Source: Methylobacter tundripaludum
GTDB lineage: Bacteria > Pseudomonadota > Gammaproteobacteria > Methylococcales > Methylomonadaceae
DNA length: 40,736 nucleotides
Direction: 5' to 3'
NCBI RefSeq assembly: GCF_002934365.1
Contig: NZ_PTIY01000019.1
Location: forward strand, 1 to 40,736
In this document: positions 7,725 through 24,198 of the stretch, piece by piece
Layout of the letters: each line of letters begins with the position of its first letter
How positions within the stretch are numbered: position 1 is the stretch's first letter
Translations under genes and position numbers: made by a program
The notes under the pieces: model-generated
Seen by the model: only the letters and a program-made list of their open reading frames with translations
Database searches by the model: none
What the model was told of the DNA's origin: nothing

Positions 7725-9020
7725 TTATAAATCGAGATACCCGGTCTCTTCGTGCAGAACGGTATCCAGACCCTGCACTTCCTCATCGGAAGTTACCCGC
7801 AGGCCTATCAATTTATCCAGGCATTTCAAAATCAGGTAACTGAATAATCCGCTCCAGGCCGCAGTAACGACTATTGCCAAGGCCTGAACGCCGACCTGGT
7901 CCATGATTGAAACGCCCTCGGCCAGACCAAGACCGCCCAAGCCGCTTGCCGCAAAAACGCCGGTCAATAATGAGCCGGTCACGCCGCCTACGCCGTGGAC
8001 GGAAAACACGTCCAGCGAATCATCGATTTTCAAGACGCGTTTTACATACTGGGTCGCGTAAAAACATACGGCGCCGGCGGTAATGCCGATCACCAAGGCT
8101 CCTGCGGGACCGACAAAGCCGGAAGCGGGCGTGATGGTGCCCAGTCCTGCGACCATGCCGGTCACAATGCCCAATACGCTGGGTTTGCTGAACCGTTTCC
8201 ATTCGATAAACATCCAGGTCAAAGCGCCGGAAGCCGCACCGATATGCGTCACCAGCATCGCCATCCCGGCGCGGCCGTCTGCGGTCAACGCGCTGCCCGC
8301 ATTAAATCCGAACCAACCGACCCACAACATGCCCGCGCCGGTAACCACCATGGTCATGTTATGCGGCGGCATGGCCGTGTTGGGGAAACCTCTTCTTTTG
8401 CCCAATACCAGCGCGGATACCAAAGCCGCAACACCGGCATTAACGTGAATGACGATACCGCCGGCAAAATCCATTGCACCCAAATCGGCCAACCAGCCGC
8501 CGCCCCACATCCAGTGACAGATCGGCAGATAAACCATGATTAACCATAAGCCGCTAAACCACAGCATCGCCGAGAACTTCATCCGCTCGGCGAAACCGCC
8601 AACGATCAGCGCTGGGGTGATAATCGCAAAGGTCATCTGAAACATGAAGAAAACTGTTTCGGGAATATCGCCTTTCAATGAGGCTACGGCTATGTCCGGC
8701 AGAAACGCTTTTGAAGCGCCGCCGATCAGCTTTTGCCAGTCTCCGCCGTCGGCGAATATAAAACTGTAAACCCCGGCCAGCCAAAGCATCGAAACCAGAC
8801 AGGCAATCGCAAAGCACTGCATTAATACCGACAGCACGTTTTTACTTCTAACCAATCCGGCATAAAACAGCGACAATCCCGGTAGGGTCATAAACAAAAC
8901 CAGAGCTGTCGATGTTAAAACCCAAGCCGTATTGGCCTGGTTTAATTGATCCGCAAAAGCCAGATCGGGTAACAGCATGAGGCCTAAAAACAGCCTTCTA
9001 TTTATTATTCTCAACAACAT
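7725..9020 (-). CDS. amtB: Ammonium transporter AmtB (second copy)
   Basis: This 431-residue Amt/Rh-family channel moves ammonium across the inner membrane. It has a probable N-terminal signal peptide (about 23 residues, ending LAFA), then eleven membrane segments starting at NTAWVLTSTALVLFMTLPGL. The Amt signature FAGGIVIHVNAGVAALVSAL and the pore histidine region FSVHGVGGVTGSL are both present. A ribosome binding site (AGGGA) precedes the ATG. Its glnK partner ends 29 bases upstream, the usual coupling by which GlnK blocks AmtB when nitrogen is plentiful. It differs clearly from the other AmtB here (431 against 465 residues, many substitutions), so the two pairs are not a recent duplication. 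Confidence 0.96.
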   Translation of the reverse strand: MLLRIINRRLFLGLMLLPDLAFADQLNQANTAWVLTSTALVLFMTLPGLSLFYAGLVRSKNVLSVLMQCFAIACLVSMLWLAGVYSFIFADGGDWQKLIGGASKAFLPDIAVASLKGDIPETVFFMFQMTFAIITPALIVGGFAERMKFSAMLWFSGLWLIMVYLPICHWMWGGGWLADLGAMDFAGGIVIHVNAGVAALVSALVLGKRRGFPNTAMPPHNMTMVVTGAGMLWVGWFGFNAGSALTADGRAGMAMLVTHIGAASGALTWMFIEWKRFSKPSVLGIVTGMVAGLGTITPASGFVGPAGALVIGITAGAVCFYATQYVKRVLKIDDSLDVFSVHGVGGVTGSLLTGVFAASGLGGLGLAEGVSIMDQVGVQALAIVVTAAWSGLFSYLILKCLDKLIGLRVTSDEEVQGLDTVLHEETGYLDL

Positions 9021-9049
9021 TTTTTTCCCTTGCGCCTTTTATAAGGCGT

Positions 9050-9400
<351 letters not shown>

Positions 9401-9525
9401 TTAGATAGCAAAAAGTATGGTAATCGGCTGCAATCATAGTGAATTATCAATCAACATACAATTGATAGACCGGATAAAAACGCCAACCTAACGTGTTTTT
9501 TCTATCCTACCGGCGTTTTTTAAAC

Positions 9526-9552
9526 GCAAAAACGGGCGCATTAAGCGCCCGT
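9526..9552 (-). terminator. Rho-independent terminator of amtB (first copy)
   Basis: ACGGGCGC (9532-9539) and GCGCCCGT (9545-9552) form a perfect 8-bp stem with a 5-base loop. It is followed on the minus strand by a T-run (9527-9531). It sits 45 bases past the first amtB and separates the two glnK-amtB pairs. Confidence 0.75.
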
Positions 9553-9596
9553 CTTTTCTCGAAAGACTTATTTTTTAAGTACAGCTCATCATTAAA

Positions 9597-10994
9597 CTAA
9601 AGGTGATACGCTGTTTCTCCATGCTCGGAAATATCAAGCCCTTCACGCTCAACTTCTTCGCTAACGCGAAGCCCGATCGACATATCCACGATCTTGTAAG
9701 CGATAAAGGATACTACCGCGGACCAGACGATACAGACGCCCACGCCCCAAGCCTGGCTCGTGATTTGACCGATCATGCTGTATTCGGCCACGCCGTTGGC
9801 AACATAATCCCAAACGCCGGTGCCGCCCAGTGCCGGACTGGCGACAATGCCGGTACCCAACGCACCGATAATGCCGCCGATACCGTGAACACCGAAAGCG
9901 TCCAGAGAGTCGTCATAACCCAGCGCGCTTTTCAGGCTGGTTACCGCCCAGAAACAAATTGCGCCGGCGACTAAGCCTAACAAAATAGCACCCATCGGGC
10001 CTGACCAGCCGCAAGCCGGCGTAATGGCGACAAGACCTGCAACCGCGCCGGAAGCTCCGCCCAACATGCTGGGTTTGCCGCGCAACAGCCATTCCGCCCC
10101 TACCCAGGCAAGAGTCGCGGCCGCGCTGGCCAGTAGCGTGTTTATGAAAACCAAGCCGGCAAGACCGTTGGCTTCCAGACCGGAACCAACGTTAAAGCCA
10201 AACCAGCCGATCCACAATAAAGAAGCGCCAATCATGGTCATGGTTACACTGTGCGGCGCCAACGATTCCTTTTTGTAACCGATGCGTTTGCCTATCATCA
10301 AACAACCTATCAATCCGGCGATACCGGCGTTGATATGCACGACCGTGCCGCCGGCGAAATCCAGCGCACCTTTTTGGAACAAAAATCCCGCCGTTGCGCC
10401 GGCCGCTTCAGCAGCCGCAGCGTCAGTATAAGCATCGGGACCGGTCCAATACCAAACCATATGCGCCATCGGCAGGTAGGAGAACGTGAACCAGATGAAC
10501 ATAAACAACAACACCGCCGAAAACTTAACCCGCTCGGCAAAAGCGCCAACGATCAGCGCCGGCGTAATGGCCGAGAACGTCAACTGGAACGCAACGTAAA
10601 TATACTCAGGGACATAGACGCCTTTACTGAAAGTCGCCGCAAGCGAATCCGGCGTTATGCCTTTAAGAAACATCTTGCTAAAGCCGCCAAAGAAGGCGGT
10701 ACCTTCGGTAAATGCGATGCTGTAACCGTAAATCGCCCACAAGATGGCCATCATCGAGAAGATTACAAACACTTGCATCAACATGGACAGCATGTTCTTG
10801 GCCCGCACCATGCCGCCGTAGAACAGTGCCAAGCCAGGTATGACCATCAGAGTAACCAGCACGGTCGCGACGATCATCCACGCCGTATCGCCTTTATTGG
10901 CGGCAGGTGGAACCGGAACAGCAGCATCGGCAAAAGAAAATCCTGCATAACCGAGCAAAGCAAACAGGATGAAGGTAGTTAAAAGTTGTTTCAT
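9597..10994 (-). CDS. amtB: Ammonium transporter AmtB (first copy)
   Basis: This 465-residue ammonium channel has a signal peptide (MKQLLTTFILFALLGYAGFSFA) and then the eleven-helix Amt core: DTAWMIVATVLVTLMVIPGL, the signature DFAGGTVVHINAGIAGLIG, and the pore segment FGVHGIGGIIGALGTG. A longer loop around residues 180-205, rich in Ala and Asp, accounts for the extra length compared with the second copy. The ribosome binding site AGGGGGAA precedes the ATG. It follows glnK by 14 bases and is probably transcribed from the sigma-54 promoter at 11389-11403. Confidence 0.97.
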   Translation of the reverse strand: MKQLLTTFILFALLGYAGFSFADAAVPVPPAANKGDTAWMIVATVLVTLMVIPGLALFYGGMVRAKNMLSMLMQVFVIFSMMAILWAIYGYSIAFTEGTAFFGGFSKMFLKGITPDSLAATFSKGVYVPEYIYVAFQLTFSAITPALIVGAFAERVKFSAVLLFMFIWFTFSYLPMAHMVWYWTGPDAYTDAAAAEAAGATAGFLFQKGALDFAGGTVVHINAGIAGLIGCLMIGKRIGYKKESLAPHSVTMTMIGASLLWIGWFGFNVGSGLEANGLAGLVFINTLLASAAATLAWVGAEWLLRGKPSMLGGASGAVAGLVAITPACGWSGPMGAILLGLVAGAICFWAVTSLKSALGYDDSLDAFGVHGIGGIIGALGTGIVASPALGGTGVWDYVANGVAEYSMIGQITSQAWGVGVCIVWSAVVSFIAYKIVDMSIGLRVSEEVEREGLDISEHGETAYHL

Positions 10995-11008
10995 AGTTCC
11001 CCCTAATA

Positions 11009-11362
<354 letters not shown>

Positions 11363-18663: not shown

Positions 18664-19902
18664 CTACGTGACCGGCAACTGCCGGGCCAACAGCTGTAAA
18701 GGATGCTCTACCCTGCCCTGATTGGTGCTGAGAAAAACCGCGCAACCAAAATTACCGCTGACGACAACATCCGCCGAGGCAGCGGTGATGGCTTGCTGTT
18801 TTAAAGCCCGCAGCTGTACGGCATTGCCCGGATGAGTCAGCATGTAGCTGCCGCCCGCCCCGCAGCAGATGGAGTTATCGGGCAACGGGGCTATGCTGAG
18901 GCCGGGGATTTTTTGCAGCAGCGCATAAACGGCTTGCTGGTTTTTAAGGACGTTGCGCTGGCTGCATGGCTCGTGTACTACGACTTTCAGCTCGGATGTG
19001 GTCAGTTGCAGATCGTCCGGCCAGTGTTTCAGCAAAAAATCGCTGATGTCGTACAGGCGCTGCCGGAACAGCTGTCCCGCTTCATCATCAGTTTGATACT
19101 CGCTTAACATTGCCCCGCAACCGGTAGCCGTGTGCAGCACGGCGTCGACGTCCAGCGCGTTGAAAACACGGATATTGTTGTCCATCAACCCGGCGGCGGA
19201 CTGGCCGTTGTGCTGGTGTATCGCCCCGCAGCAGCCTTGCTTCGGCGGCACCAGCACCTCGTAGCCTATCGCGTTAAGCAGCTTGATCGCCGCCTGCAAG
19301 GTCTCGCGGTCGAAATGTTCGGCGATACAACCGGTGAACAGTGCGACCCTGCCGCGTTTCGCGCCGTCGGCAGGATAAGAAACAGCCAATGCCTGCAATG
19401 CCGGTTTAGCCATCAAGGCTTCGGCATCCGCCAAATGCAGTTTCTTCAGCAAGCCGGTGCTTCGCAACGGTTTTTGCAGGCCCGATTTCAGATAGACCGC
19501 AAGCAACGGCATTAGCCGCGTCCGCCAACGCTTACGTTCAATCAAGCCGAACGCCAGTTTCGCCAACCAACCCGGATTAATCTTTAGCCCGGCCTGAGCC
19601 TGATCGAATAACTGTCCGTAAGCCATCCGGCTTGGGCAAACGGTTTCGCAGGCCCGGCATTGTACGCAGTTATCCAGATGCATGCGCTCCTCGGCGCTGA
19701 TCGGCAGGTTTTCAACCAGAATTTTGCTGATCGTGCGGATGCGTCGGCGTGGGGTTTCTTGATCGATCTTGAACAATCGAAAGGTCGGGCAACTGCTTAC
19801 GCAAACGCCGCAACGCATGCACTCCCCGCCATCCGGTATATACGGCCCCGATGCTATTGGCTCGCCGGGCTCATCGTAGCCCATGTCCATGAAGTCAAAC
19901 AT
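18664..19902 (-). CDS. GlcF-like Fe-S protein (heterodisulfide reductase-type CCG domains)
   Basis: This 412-residue protein has two [4Fe-4S] ferredoxin motifs (C28-x2-C31-x2-C34-x3-C38 and C79-x2-C82-x2-C85-x3-C89). Two CCG cysteine-rich domains follow (QGCCGAIHQHNG, and ICCGAGGSYMLTHP). Length and order match the glycolate oxidase iron-sulfur subunit GlcF. No glcD or glcE flavoprotein is in the window. Instead the gene starts 7 bases after the 145-aa gene and reads as the last gene of the operon that begins with the SIR2-like gene. It probably passes electrons from a flavoprotein encoded elsewhere to a quinone. The location suggests, but does not prove, a link with nitrogen fixation. Name and substrate should be treated as provisional. 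Confidence 0.85.
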   Translation of the reverse strand: MFDFMDMGYDEPGEPIASGPYIPDGGECMRCGVCVSSCPTFRLFKIDQETPRRRIRTISKILVENLPISAEERMHLDNCVQCRACETVCPSRMAYGQLFDQAQAGLKINPGWLAKLAFGLIERKRWRTRLMPLLAVYLKSGLQKPLRSTGLLKKLHLADAEALMAKPALQALAVSYPADGAKRGRVALFTGCIAEHFDRETLQAAIKLLNAIGYEVLVPPKQGCCGAIHQHNGQSAAGLMDNNIRVFNALDVDAVLHTATGCGAMLSEYQTDDEAGQLFRQRLYDISDFLLKHWPDDLQLTTSELKVVVHEPCSQRNVLKNQQAVYALLQKIPGLSIAPLPDNSICCGAGGSYMLTHPGNAVQLRALKQQAITAASADVVVSGNFGCAVFLSTNQGRVEHPLQLLARQLPVT

Positions 19903-19909
19903 CTAAAAC

Positions 19910-20347
19910 CTACATTACCTTGGTATAGGCGCGGCGCAACAGCTCCATTTCCGCAGGCGGCCTGCCGCGCAGTTCCGGCAAGGTTCTCATCCGGCAATCC
20001 CGGCTTTGCATCAGTTTGTGCGGCGGGTCGAGCAGCATGAAGCGCGCCATGTGGACGGTGATAATGCCGCCGGGAGCGTCGATTTGTTCGCTAAATTCCG
20101 GTTCGACGCGCAGCAGGTCGTTGTCCAGTTGCAGCAGCCGGTTGATCGCGTTGACCAGCACGGCCGGATGCGTACTGACTTTGCTAGGCTTAAACTCTTC
20201 AGGCTCCAGTGCGCTGGACAACGCAGGCAGCGGCTCTGGAAAGCAGACGCTGCCGTTGCCGTGCTGGGCGAACAGAATCAAGGCGCTGATGTCGCCTTTG
20301 TAGTAAAGCAGCAGACGGTGATTGGCGAATGTGTCGGACTGGTTCAT
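19910..20347 (-). CDS. Unknown protein in the SIR2-like nif-divergent operon
   Basis: This 145-residue protein has no domain that I recognise. It has no signal peptide or membrane segment. A hydrophobic core around residues 11-27 (LLYYKGDISALILFAQHG) and a basic tail (RDCRMRTLPELRGRPPAEME) are visible. Its ATG overlaps the stop of the SIR2-like gene (TAATG), so translation is probably coupled, and the GlcF-like gene begins 7 bases after its stop. The tight packing argues that the three products work together. Confidence 0.8.
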   Translation of the reverse strand: MNQSDTFANHRLLLYYKGDISALILFAQHGNGSVCFPEPLPALSSALEPEEFKPSKVSTHPAVLVNAINRLLQLDNDLLRVEPEFSEQIDAPGGIITVHMARFMLLDPPHKLMQSRDCRMRTLPELRGRPPAEMELLRRAYTKVM

Positions 20348-21186
20348 TAGACAAGCACGGTAGCCAGTAGTTCTTCAACATCCACATCCAGGATTTCCAG
20401 ACCTATTTTTTTACAATAGCGTATTTCTTTATCGGTCGGGTTCTTGTTTAAGACCCACCCTTTTTTCTCTGCCGCACCATAAACGATGTCGCTCATCACC
20501 ATGCGTTCCGAGTCCCTGTTCAGCGGCACGCCTATAAACAGGTATTGTTTGCCCTTGCGGTACTCTTTAAGGAAATCGGGGATCGCAAAGCCTCCCATTA
20601 ACTCGGTGATGTAATCGACATAATCGGCATCGGAAGCGATATAGTTGGCTTCCGGCCTGGGCGTACCCATCGGTTTAAATAAAATGGGAAATCTATGATC
20701 GACCTGTTCCTGGGGTATTTCGAAATAATCGCTGCCGTCGAAGTGATAGATTTTAAAGCGGAACTGGCTGGCGCTGATTCTTGCGACCCCGACAATCAGC
20801 GTATGCTCTTCATCGGAATAGGTATCCTGCAATTGGGTGTCCCTGTTTATGTCGATGACATACGCAGGCCGCCATTCCGCCAGCCAATCATGTACGGCTG
20901 CACGCGTATATTCGGTCTCGCCATAAAGCTTGGTCAGAAACTGGCCCAGAAAATTCCTGCCTCTTTTTAGCTCCTGATTCATCGCCGCCCTGGGAAACTC
21001 ATACATCAGCTTGGGCGCCATCGGATTGCCGTTATTCATAGCCAAAATCAGGCTGTTGCTGTCGGCAGGCATCGGTGCTCCGGTTTGCTTATTGGTTGCA
21101 TCGAAAAGTGCGCCCGGCCCCAAGTAAGGTACGACTTTGTTATCGTACAACCCATCCAGTATTTCAGAAAAATCAGTAGAAGACAT
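20347..21186 (-). CDS. SIR2-like domain protein, divergent from nifH
   Basis: This 279-residue protein has the start of a SIR2-type NAD-binding fold. KVVPYLGPGALFD replaces the usual GAG motif near residues 17-30. A strand AYVIDINRD corresponds to the TNYD-like motif, and a later strand-loop (FRFKIYHFDGS) corresponds to the K-x-HG region. SIR2-like domains bind or consume NAD; members include deacylases and NADases. Which activity applies here cannot be told. Start: ATG at 21186 has GGAG 7 bases ahead, while the two in-frame upstream ATGs (21198, 21210) lack one. A sigma-54 promoter sits 41 bases upstream and a NifA-type site further out, so expression under nitrogen-fixing conditions is likely. 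Confidence 0.82.
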   Translation of the reverse strand: MSSTDFSEILDGLYDNKVVPYLGPGALFDATNKQTGAPMPADSNSLILAMNNGNPMAPKLMYEFPRAAMNQELKRGRNFLGQFLTKLYGETEYTRAAVHDWLAEWRPAYVIDINRDTQLQDTYSDEEHTLIVGVARISASQFRFKIYHFDGSDYFEIPQEQVDHRFPILFKPMGTPRPEANYIASDADYVDYITELMGGFAIPDFLKEYRKGKQYLFIGVPLNRDSERMVMSDIVYGAAEKKGWVLNKNPTDKEIRYCKKIGLEILDVDVEELLATVLV

Positions 21187-21226
21187 TGCAAACTCCATTA
21201 TTAAGTACATGTATCCTTGTACTTAA

Positions 21227-21241
21227 GCAATATTTAATCCA
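21227..21241 (-). promoter_or_regulatory. Sigma-54 promoter of the SIR2-like operon
   Basis: On the minus strand TGGATTAAATATTGC has GG and GC 10 bases apart and a perfect -12 TTGC; the -24 element is TGGATT rather than TGGCAC. The expected transcript start is about 21215, which excludes translation from 21210 and fits the 21186 start. Confidence 0.6.
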
Positions 21242-21329: not shown

Positions 21330-21345
21330 TGTAGTGTTTGTAACA
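21330..21345. promoter_or_regulatory. NifA-type upstream activator site 1
   Basis: TGTAGTGTTTGTAACA fits TGT-N10-ACA exactly. It is 89 bases from the sigma-54 promoter of the SIR2-like operon and over 320 bases from that of nifH, so it most likely serves the SIR2-like operon. Confidence 0.65.
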
Positions 21346-21557: not shown

Positions 21558-21573
21558 TGTTACTAAGCCTACA
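21558..21573. promoter_or_regulatory. NifA-type upstream activator site 2
   Basis: TGTTACTAAGCCTACA fits TGT-N10-ACA exactly and ends 97 bases ahead of the nifH -24 element, the usual distance for NifA acting through a DNA loop. The DNA between them (about 21610-21665) is very AT-rich, as expected of a bend site, although no exact IHF consensus was found. Confidence 0.75.
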
Positions 21574-21669: not shown

Positions 21670-21684
21670 TGGCACACCCCTTGC
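21670..21684 (+). promoter_or_regulatory. Sigma-54 promoter of nifHDK
   Basis: TGGCACACCCCTTGC is a perfect -24/-12 sequence (TGGCAC-N5-TTGC). The transcript is expected to start near 21696, giving a leader of about 38 bases that includes the AGAGGAG ribosome binding site. Confidence 0.9.
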
Positions 21685-21721
21685 TTTATCCCTAATGTCA
21701 TCAACAACAACGTCCTAATAA

Positions 21722-22615
<894 letters not shown>

Positions 22616-22716: not shown

Positions 22717-24198
22717 ATGGCTGCTCTAACAAAAGAAGAGACCGAAGCGCTTATTCAAGAAGTGCTGGAAGTCTATCCCGAACAAGCAAGGAAAGATCGC
22801 GCTAAGCATTTGGCAGTTAACGATCAGTCTTTGGAAAAATCGAATAAATGTATTACTTCAAACCGTAAATCCCAGCCCGGCGTAATGACCATTCGCGGTT
22901 GCGCTTACGCGGGTTCCAAGGGCGTGGTTTGGGGTCCGATTAAAGATATGATTCATATCTCGCACGGCCCGGTCGGTTGCGGACAGTACTCGCGCGCCGG
23001 TCGCCGCAACTATTATGTCGGCACCACCGGCATCAATACCTTCGGCACGATGAACTTTACTTCCGACTTTCAGGAGAAAGACATTGTTTTCGGCGGCGAT
23101 AAAAAGCTGGCCAAAATCATGACTGAAATCGAAGAATTGTTTCCATTGAACAAAGGCATCAGTATTCAATCGGAATGCCCGATCGGTTTGATTGGGGACG
23201 ATATTGAAGCGGTCGCCAAAAAAGCCAACAAGGAAATCAACAAACCTGTGGTGCCGGTTCGTTGCGAAGGTTTTCGCGGCGTTTCCCAATCGCTGGGCCA
23301 TCACATCGCTAACGATGCGATTCGCGACTGGGTATTGGAAAACCGTGACGGCGACGAAAGCTTTGCCACAACACCTTATGATGTCGCGGTGATCGGCGAT
23401 TACAACATCGGCGGCGATGCCTGGGCTTCGCGTACTTTGCTCGAAGAAATGGGCTTGCGTGTCGTTGCTCAATGGTCCGGCGACGGTACCATTGCGGAAA
23501 TGGAAAAAACGCCCAAGGTGAAATTGAATTTGATCCATTGCTACCGCTCGATGAACTACATTGCGCGGCACATGGAAGAAAAATACAAAATCCCCTGGAT
23601 CGAGTACAACTTCTTCGGCCCCACCAAAATTGCCGAATCGCTACGCAAGATTGCCGCATTATTCGATGAAACGATTCAAGCGGGCGCTGAAAAAGTTATC
23701 GCCAAATATCAGGCTGAGTACGATGCGGTTATCGCCAAATACAAACCGCGTCTGCAAGGCAAACGCGTGATGTTGTATGTCGGCGGCTTGCGTCCGCGTC
23801 ATGTGATCGGTGCGTATGAGGATTTGGGCATGGAAGTGGTCGGTACCGGTTATGAATTCGGTCACAACGACGACTACGACCGCACAATCAAAGAAATGGG
23901 CAATGCGACGTTGATTTATGACGACGTGACCGGCTATGAATTTGAAGAGTTCGTCAAGAAAGTCCAGCCTGACCTGATCGGTTCCGGCATCAAGGAAAAG
24001 TACATTTTCCAAAAAATGGGCATTCCGTTCCGGCAAATGCATTCCTGGGATTATTCCGGCCCTTATCACGGTTATGACGGCTTTGCCATCTTCGCCCGCG
24101 ATATGGACATGACACTGAATAATCCTTGCTGGAAACAGGTGAAAGCACCTTGGAAAACAGCTGAGAGTTCAGACGTAGCAGTCGCTGCAAGCGCTTAA
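22717..24198 (+). CDS. nifD: Nitrogenase MoFe protein alpha chain NifD
   Basis: This 493-residue subunit carries FeMo-cofactor. The cofactor ligands are present at the Azotobacter positions: Cys275 (LIHCYRSMN) and His442 ([10 protein letters not shown]). So are the active-site Gln191 and His195 (VSQSLGHH). P-cluster ligands Cys62 (RGCAYAG), Cys88 (PVGCGQ) and Cys154 (SECPIG) are intact. The protein is therefore a standard Mo-dependent form rather than VnfD or AnfD. TAGGAG lies ahead of the ATG. The gap to nifH is 101 bases and holds a hairpin. Confidence 0.99.

Follow-up and report, generated by a model that had tools for sequence, protein, structure and literature searches.

A SIR2-fold, NafT-like and iron-sulfur gene set facing nifH in Methylobacter tundripaludum: a candidate nitrogenase maintenance operon

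The contig NZ_PTIY01000019.1 of Methylobacter tundripaludum (assembly GCF_002934365.1, positions 1 to 40,736), whose full 40,736 nucleotides are called the window here, belongs to a methanotroph of the Methylococcales and carries three minus-strand genes divergent from nifH. They encode a SIR2-like protein, a 145-residue homologue of the Azotobacter vinelandii protein NafT, and a protein resembling GlcF, the iron-sulfur subunit of glycolate oxidase. We propose that these genes constitute a set for nitrogenase maintenance, namely for damage recognition and repair, which would be induced through NifA and sigma-54, and we give this reading a probability of about 0.5. The joint mechanism of the three proteins is one that we infer from homology and distribution.

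Promoter and genomic distribution

The tight packing of the genes foreseen in the original prediction, which was made from the sequence alone, was confirmed: all three open reading frames lie on the minus strand, the SIR2-like and NafT-like genes overlap by 1 base (TAATG), and a 7-base gap separates the NafT-like gene from the iron-sulfur gene. The SIR2-like ATG at 21186 is preceded by a GGAG ribosome-binding site, and the longest open reading frame begins at an upstream ATG at 21210. Among the matches listed, the nearest named relatives carrying the SIR2-like gene were metagenome-assembled genomes of Methylobacter.

The sigma-54 core of the operon stands 55 nt before the SIR2-like ATG (Table 1). 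It matches the core only and was missing from the full-consensus matches at up to 3 mismatches, and NifA-type TGT-N10-ACA sites were not enriched across the whole window (5 found versus 6.35 expected). Judged from the window alone, the predicted promoter gives a modest signal. A contig scan for the SIR2-like gene yielded 593 stretches, 573 of which were confirmed; the best 80 of them, in which close relatives are over-represented, are referred to below as the 80 loci. All 35 intergenic regions lying directly between nifH and a SIR2-like gene contained a sigma-54 core directed toward the SIR2-like gene within 250 bp, and 33 of them contained a NifA site 60-220 bp upstream. With shuffled sequences the means were 1.17 for the core and 0.03 for core and NifA site together. 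Although the 35 loci also cover Marinobacterium, Cohaesibacter, Pseudomaricurvus and Mangrovimicrobium, many of them come from close relatives, and they are therefore not 35 independent tests. Because core and NifA site are conserved across these regions, the SIR2 promoter was accepted, in keeping with the earlier proposal of a sigma-54 promoter facing away from nifH. By this conserved promoter and its upstream site, the operon is a predicted member of the NifA regulon. When the loci preceded by draT (discussed below) are also set aside, 33 of the 80 loci remain; a core was found within 250 bp of the SIR2-like gene in 21 of these (locus L125 being unusual at 208 bp), and other nif-type genes were in view in 24.

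The distribution of the genes was surveyed in a class sample of 369 gammaproteobacterial genomes and a phylum sample of 200 genomes, both sampled evenly from larger groups, and in 61 relatives of the window genome (28 with and 33 without nifH). In the class sample the SIR2-like gene was present in 29 genomes and nifH in 32, with 27 genomes having both (Fisher p 1e-33). Altogether 28 of the 29 matches sit in nif-bearing genomes; one of them, in G326, lies at a contig end, with nifD and nifK elsewhere that are 84% and 81% identical to those of the window. The 29th, in G223, is a weak match (70.7 bits) to a distinct, defence-type SIR2 gene, next to what we take to be the gene of a large ATPase-type protein. 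Among the relatives, 26/28 nifH-positive and 3/33 nifH-negative genomes carried the SIR2-like gene, and at a completeness of at least 90% the counts were 24/24 and 0/23. In the phylum sample it occurred in 12 of the 200 genomes and nifH in 33, with both in 10.

Six genomes with the SIR2-like gene and no nifH were considered as candidate non-diazotrophs, namely G326, the relatives G013, G014 and G026 (77-81% complete, with nifK, nifE or nifN), and G459 (nifDKEN) and G482 (nifEN) of the phylum sample. All six were rejected as such for their Oxidored_nitro genes, which are nifD, nifK, nifE or nifN and whose best match per genome is 74-98% identical to the window genome's own. Since these genes are present, the six probably lack nifH through assembly gaps. 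Thus, with G223 set aside, the SIR2-like gene is restricted to nif-bearing genomes among those sampled, without being universal among diazotrophs.

The NafT-like gene was found in 13/369 genomes of the class sample, all 13 of which have both nifH and the SIR2-like gene. At E values below 1e-30 it was present in 24/28 nifH-positive and 4/33 nifH-negative relatives, weak matches in G003 (partial, at contig ends) and G051 (E 3e-4) being excluded; three of the four nifH-negative genomes (G013, G014 and G026) carry other nif genes. The iron-sulfur gene and draT were searched in 74 chosen genomes, among them 43 of the 61 relatives (the 28 with nifH and 15 of the 33 without). With a 410-position profile, iron-sulfur orthologues scored 502-800 bits in 22/74 genomes, while other GlcF-like proteins reached at most 378 bits. 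Orthologues were present in 19/28 nifH-positive relatives and in 3/15 nifH-negative ones, again G013, G014 and G026 with their other nif genes, and the orthologue adjoined a NafT-like gene in 22/22 genomes (in G003 via the partial matches at contig ends). The set is hence not one found mostly in non-diazotrophs: in the genomes searched, and with G223 set aside, the SIR2-like gene and the iron-sulfur orthologue occurred only with nif genes, and the NafT-like gene did so with one exception, so that the proposed tie of the three genes to nitrogen fixation is supported. An anti-phage defence role of the operon was ruled out by zero PADLOC matches and the nif linkage, the distinct gene of G223 being the sole defence-like match in the class sample. 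An Rfam search gave no match.

Table 1. Genes and promoter elements of the SIR2-like operon and the facing nifH region (positions in the window)
Feature	Position	Strand	Evidence or remark
SIR2-fold nif accessory gene, 279 aa	20347..21186	(-)	Pfam SIR2_2 E 9.6e-7
NafT-family gene, 145 aa	19910..20347	(-)	phmmer, profile, fold
GlcF-like Fe-S gene, 412 aa	18664..19902	(-)	two [4Fe-4S] motifs and two CCG domains
Predicted sigma-54 -24/-12 core TGGATTAAATATTGC of SIR2 operon	21227..21241	(-)	TGG-N8-TTGC; kept in orthologous intergenic regions
NifA-type upstream activator site TGT-N10-ACA	21330..21345	(.)	104 nt upstream of SIR2 promoter core; spacing conserved
NifA-type upstream activator site	21558..21573	(.)	112 nt upstream of nifH promoter
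nifH sigma-54 promoter TGGCACACCCCTTGCT	21670..21685	(+)	1 mismatch
nifH, divergent from SIR2-like gene	21734..22615	(+)	TIGR01287 464.9 bits
nifD	22717..24198	(+)	carries H195, H196, D200, C275, R277, Y281

Elsewhere in the window, at 7725-11356 on the minus strand, two pairs of genes stand in tandem a few kb from what is presumably glnA; from their translations we take each pair to encode an ammonium transporter and a PII-like protein.

The NafT-like and iron-sulfur proteins

The 145-residue protein had been described as unknown, and Pfam gave no family for it; NCBIfam gave no named family, and the two databases together gave none for four NafT-like relatives. It is a homologue of NafT by sequence, profile and fold. 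In a phmmer search against solved structures, its sequence matched A. vinelandii NafT (chain E of 8ENO and 9CJF) at E 4.5e-8; with a profile built from 23 family rows, the match to NafT reached E 1.4e-20. The predicted model (predicted local distance difference test score, pLDDT, 90.5) matched 8ENO chain E at E 3.0e-10 with template modelling (TM) scores of 0.73/0.85, the two proteins being 28% identical in the fold alignment.

What is reported of NafT, here as throughout from the passages of the cited papers that bear on these genes, concerns its binding to the nitrogenase molybdenum-iron (MoFe) protein. NafT (Avin_01560) was found bound to homocitrate-deficient MoFe protein (PMC9968304) and also on MoFe protein inactivated by alkaline turnover (PMC11612016). 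Its site overlaps that of the Fe protein, and contacts are made by a loop with Ser14 and Arg16 and by the C-terminal helix (PMC9968304, PMC11612016). Ser14 corresponds to S21 of the window protein, which is invariant in 23/23 rows, and the C-terminal helix, spanning 131-144 in the model, holds E133 and R138, two more of the five invariant positions in these rows; in NafT this helix is amphipathic. The NifD residues listed in Table 1 stand at the same numbers as Azotobacter residues at or near the NafT interface. NafT and the window protein have in common sequence and fold homology, nif linkage, the interface serine and positions of the C-terminal helix, while the window homologue differs in sharing an operon with SIR2-like and CCG/Fe-S genes.

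The next fold matches of the NafT-like model were Nudix proteins, weak ones at E 0.0085 and above (Ap4A hydrolase at 0.0085, and NrtR). The Nudix box has the form GX5EX7REUXEEXGU, and inspection of the window sequence revealed no such box. These next-best fold matches suggest that the fold of NafT is a degenerate Nudix-like one, a likeness that the passages considered of the two NafT papers (PMC9968304, PMC11612016) do not remark on.

For the third protein, the predicted make-up of two [4Fe-4S] and two CCG domains was borne out (CCG E 3.7e-25, Fer4 dicluster models), and 16 cysteines are invariant in 11 aligned rows, from which locus L073 was left out for a stop in its translation. This make-up is shared with GlcF. 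However, the window protein did not reach the NCBIfam GlcF equivalog cut-off (199.8 versus 333 bits), and neither glcD nor glcE adjoins its gene, the neighbours of which are putA and the NafT-like gene. An ordinary glycolate oxidase subunit was thus ruled out by the GlcF score below cut-off together with the distribution of the orthologues, and the protein is classed as a nif-linked GlcF paralogue. The window genome has a second, lower-scoring paralogue at contig C1 (305 bits). Two other methanotroph contigs (L071 and L073) carry, behind the SIR2-like gene and in opposite orientation, an Fe-S gene of lower similarity (about 50% identity); L073, whose Fe-S match contains the stop, also has a NafT-like gene (55%).

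The SIR2-fold protein and its relatives in nif clusters

Pfam, the AlphaFold model (pLDDT 89.9, predicted TM score 0.90) and a fold search agree that the SIR2 Rossmann-type fold is kept in the window protein, for which NCBIfam gave a chance-level match only. Its closest solved relatives are phage-defence SIR2 enzymes that cleave nicotinamide adenine dinucleotide (NADases). The fold search returned KomC at E 2.5e-9, followed by DSR2 and ThsA, with TM scores of about 0.6, and KomC was also the best match by sequence (E 2.8e-5). Compared with these NADases, the window family is nif-linked and single-domain and has usually lost the catalytic histidine.

In a tree thinned to 80 rows, the family fell into clade A (64 rows) and clade B (15 rows), with the defence-type protein very distant. 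Clade A, the type that faces nifH, shares 55-97% identity with the window protein. Clade B, 21-27% identical to it, includes genes that follow nifB-fdxN-nifZ-nifT on symbiosis plasmids of rhizobia and occurs also in nif clusters of Paraburkholderia and Methylococcus EFPC2. A SIR2 match was found in 72 plasmid records, every one from a rhizobial genus, Paraburkholderia or Methylococcus; in the four whose gene neighbourhoods were inspected, the match lies in a nif cluster.

The original prediction had suggested testing the SIR2-like protein for NADase or for deacylase/deribosylase activity. Catalytic residues were surveyed in 138 matches, corresponding to 114 unique sequences, and the catalytic position was set through the H-G of the defence-type SIR2 protein (K-x-H-G), which bridges the family to KomC H146 and DSR2 H171 (the latter position taken from structure entry names). 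The aligned histidine is absent from 107/114 members. The position is M173 in the window protein; in clade A (n = 99) it is Met in 75, Leu in 21 and His in 3, and in clade B (n = 15) it is Leu in 7, His in 4, Tyr in 2, Trp in 1 and Ile in 1. Deacylase sirtuins carry a four-cysteine zinc module; since the window protein contains one cysteine, it has no sirtuin zinc site. The NAD-site asparagine (N114) is kept in 99/99 members of clade A and is replaced by Trp in 15/15 of clade B. Deacylase or NADase activity is thus unlikely given the missing histidine, and the window protein is probably a pseudo-enzyme, as judged from these alignments, which may still bind a nucleotide. Three points run counter to the pseudo-enzyme assignment: a direct local profile alignment to KomC puts the catalytic histidine 23 residues earlier, at Asp150; H148, two residues before it, is kept in 70/99 of clade A and 3/15 of clade B; and a histidine is retained at the aligned position in 7/114 members.

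Genes of this kind have been reported several times, so that the description of the set as an undescribed system holds only in part. In Pseudomonas stutzeri A1501, PST1325 is annotated as SIR2 family and listed beside nifH (PMC11332353); it is induced 9.68-fold, and a non-polar mutant keeps 23% of wild-type nitrogenase activity, the lowest value of nine mutants (PMC2820453). Its likeness to the window gene consists in annotation, nif induction and position beside nifH in the gene list. Rcc03262, a SIR2-family protein of Rhodobacter capsulatus, was not found in the proteome of a nifA mutant (PMC6925177), and a SIR2-like gene is shown in Rhodovulum nif operons (PMC9412634). The clade B nif genes (those of Rhizobium etli and Paraburkholderia, with Rcc03262 and msi351 of Mesorhizobium loti placed by gene order) belong to the same family where tested by sequence or tree. 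They are NifA-dependent in R. capsulatus and lie within the NifA-regulated unit of the nifB promoter in M. loti, while they differ from the window gene in their low identity, in mostly standing behind nifT, in the Asn to Trp change and in the dispensability of msi351 in symbiosis. ZMO1821 of Zymomonas mobilis is upregulated during N2 fixation and has been proposed to be a deacetylase (PMC8600466, PMC8594446). In the literature joining SIR2 or sirtuins with nif, which covered few subscription papers and was seen in passages, this was the only suggestion of a mechanism found, and no paper was found on "SIR2 family protein" together with "nif gene cluster".

We consider it very improbable that the window protein is an active sirtuin deacylase or NADase controlling nitrogenase, as suggested for ZMO1821 (PMC8600466). 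Such a reading would be in line with the NADases as closest solved relatives, with the invariant asparagine and frequent H148 of clade A and with the seven histidine-bearing members. The substitutions by Met, Leu, Tyr, Trp or Ile in the other 107 sequences, the Trp in all of clade B together with its rarity of H148, the K-x-H-G bridge and the lack of a zinc site speak against it.

Two further observations were made at SIR2 loci. In the proteobacterial loci L107, L113, L135, L136, L137, L140, L142, L143 and L185, the SIR2-like gene is followed directly by a bacteriohemerythrin-like gene, whose product is a possible O2-linked partner of the SIR2-like protein. Locus L084, on a contig labelled Geobacteraceae, has a Methylobacter-like operon at 83% identity and is probably a binning error.

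Gene arrangement and proposed role

The three genes are co-arranged behind one promoter, as originally proposed, but the operon is a lineage-specific arrangement of two modules. Among the 27 relatives with both SIR2-like and NafT-like genes, the two are contiguous in 14, all of the window's genus, and have a DUF364 gene between them in 3. The order SIR2-DUF364-NafT-FeS recurs outside the genus in 7/80 loci, and elsewhere a module of a gene for a 119-residue hypothetical protein, DUF364, NafT and sometimes FeS stands away from SIR2. DUF364 (putative metal chelation), often with the hypothetical protein of about 119 residues, is in fact a recurrent nif accessory module with a NafT-like gene (L068, L074, L075, L079, L088, L089, L105, L191-L194, L196 and L198), and no paper was found linking it with nitrogen fixation. 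In the window genome itself the DUF364 gene (L183) is part of another nif cluster, found on contig C25, beside a gene that we take to be NifN-like from its similarity to nif genes. Because the arrangement of modules varies among relatives, the three-gene set is best seen as one rearrangement of a broader group of nif accessory genes. The nif SIR2 gene might share its promoter with an otherwise independent NafT-FeS pair through lineage rearrangement, with no joint function. The confinement of the contiguous order without DUF364 to 14 genomes of the window's genus among the 61 relatives, and the separation of the modules in others, would suit this explanation, whereas the recurrent four-gene order and the 13/13 co-occurrence of NafT-like with SIR2-like genes and nifH in the class sample do not; we regard it as possible, on the doubtful side.

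No draT or draG is in view within the window, as had been stated, but the window genome does have draT on contig C3 (C3:274151-274921, L184), with an adjacent gene that we assume to be draG-like. The idea of the operon as a DraTG substitute that co-occurs with the absence of draTG was consequently dropped: draTG is present elsewhere in the genome, and draT occurs in 16 of 24 near-complete nifH-positive relatives. A role of the SIR2-like protein within the DraT/DraG ADP-ribosylation switch, for example in binding NAD+ or ADP-ribosylated NifH, was also weighed. In 12 of the 80 loci draT (PF07357) is directly upstream of the SIR2-like gene, with nifH divergent beyond it in 11, and the SIR2 fold is a fold of NAD enzymes. 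Yet a sigma-54 core of its own precedes the SIR2-like gene in 9 of the 12 draT-SIR2 gaps, and in the class sample draT was present in 13 and absent from 14 of the 27 genomes with the SIR2-like gene and nifH, and present in 4 of the 5 with nifH only. By these counts the SIR2-like gene is independent of draT, which rules it out as an obligate DraT partner and makes a part in the switch improbable.

In the maintenance reading, the NafT-like protein would dock on MoFe protein in which loss of homocitrate has left the FeMo-cofactor site disordered, cover the Fe-protein site and so pause the damaged nitrogenase. The SIR2-fold protein, not itself catalytic but perhaps able to bind NAD(H) or ADP-ribose, would be a partner acting on nitrogenase or its Fe protein within this upkeep or assembly process. 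A dedicated electron carrier, the CCG/[4Fe-4S] protein, would supply or remove electrons during repair, and the DUF364 protein, between SIR2 and NafT in other genera, would be a likely fourth member. In favour of this reading are the NafT homology with the conserved interface positions, the reported NafT:MoFe structures, the restriction of the SIR2-like gene to nifH-positive genomes among near-complete relatives, the conserved promoters, the constant adjacency of the iron-sulfur and NafT-like genes, the induction and mutant phenotype of PST1325 and the absence of Rcc03262 from the nifA mutant.

Alternatively, the SIR2-fold and NafT-like proteins could act in assembly and, as NifZ, NifT and NifW do, help to insert the FeMo-cofactor or to mature the MoFe protein. 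Clade B genes stand directly behind nifB-fdxN-nifZ-nifT or in a longer nifB-nifZ-nifT run, the genome's own DUF364 gene is in the second nif cluster beside the NifN-like gene, and the authors of the NafT work consider that the protein may act in biogenesis or cofactor insertion (PMC9968304). Set against assembly is the binding of NafT to homocitrate-deficient and turnover-inactivated MoFe protein over the Fe-protein site, which fits damage recognition as well. We keep assembly as a possible, tentative alternative and favour maintenance; maintenance, assembly and a merely shared promoter are not mutually exclusive.

Several observations weigh against the maintenance reading. The SIR2-like gene is missing from 5/32 (class) and 23/33 (phylum) nifH-positive genomes, 9 of the 80 SIR2 loci show none of the tested nif-type genes in view (for example in Methylomonas methanica, over 10 kb on both sides), and G060, a complete genome with neither nifH nor Oxidored_nitro, has a NafT-like gene at E 1.1e-42 (L186, G060:C1:3704000-3718000). 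Of the 27 relatives carrying both SIR2 and NafT, 10 have them at separate places, and a strict sigma-54/NifA site pair was not found just upstream of the detached NafT modules. NafT itself has only a putative function; moreover, the loop residues His9 and His11 of its histidine cluster correspond to Tyr16 and Gly18 in the window protein and its Arg16 to Leu23 (Arg in 9/23 rows), residues that the passages considered of the NafT papers nowhere claim to define the family. PST1325 is tied to the window gene by annotation and position rather than sequence, being listed next to PST1324 and PST1323, and disruption of the sirtuin-like msi351 of M. loti left symbiosis fully effective (PMC3538637).

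A more specific version would make NafT and the SIR2-fold protein a pair of degenerate Nudix and SIR2 enzymes for metabolite-sensing quality control: the SIR2-fold protein would sense NAD(H) or ADP-ribose, NafT would bind as a cap over the Fe-protein site of damaged MoFe protein, and electrons for repair would be returned by the CCG/Fe-S protein, giving a redox-linked repair cycle independent of DraTG. This version is speculative and in our view rather unlikely.

Nitrogenase is fragile, and the operon bears on the cellular recognition and repair of damaged MoFe protein. It would give NafT, suggested here to be Nudix-like, named partners behind a nif promoter, namely a SIR2-fold protein and a dedicated electron carrier. 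The scattered "SIR2 family" annotations of nif clusters are joined into a single family, most members of which are catalytically degenerate. Full nitrogenase activity in P. stutzeri requires the counterpart of the SIR2-fold protein, as identified by annotation and position.

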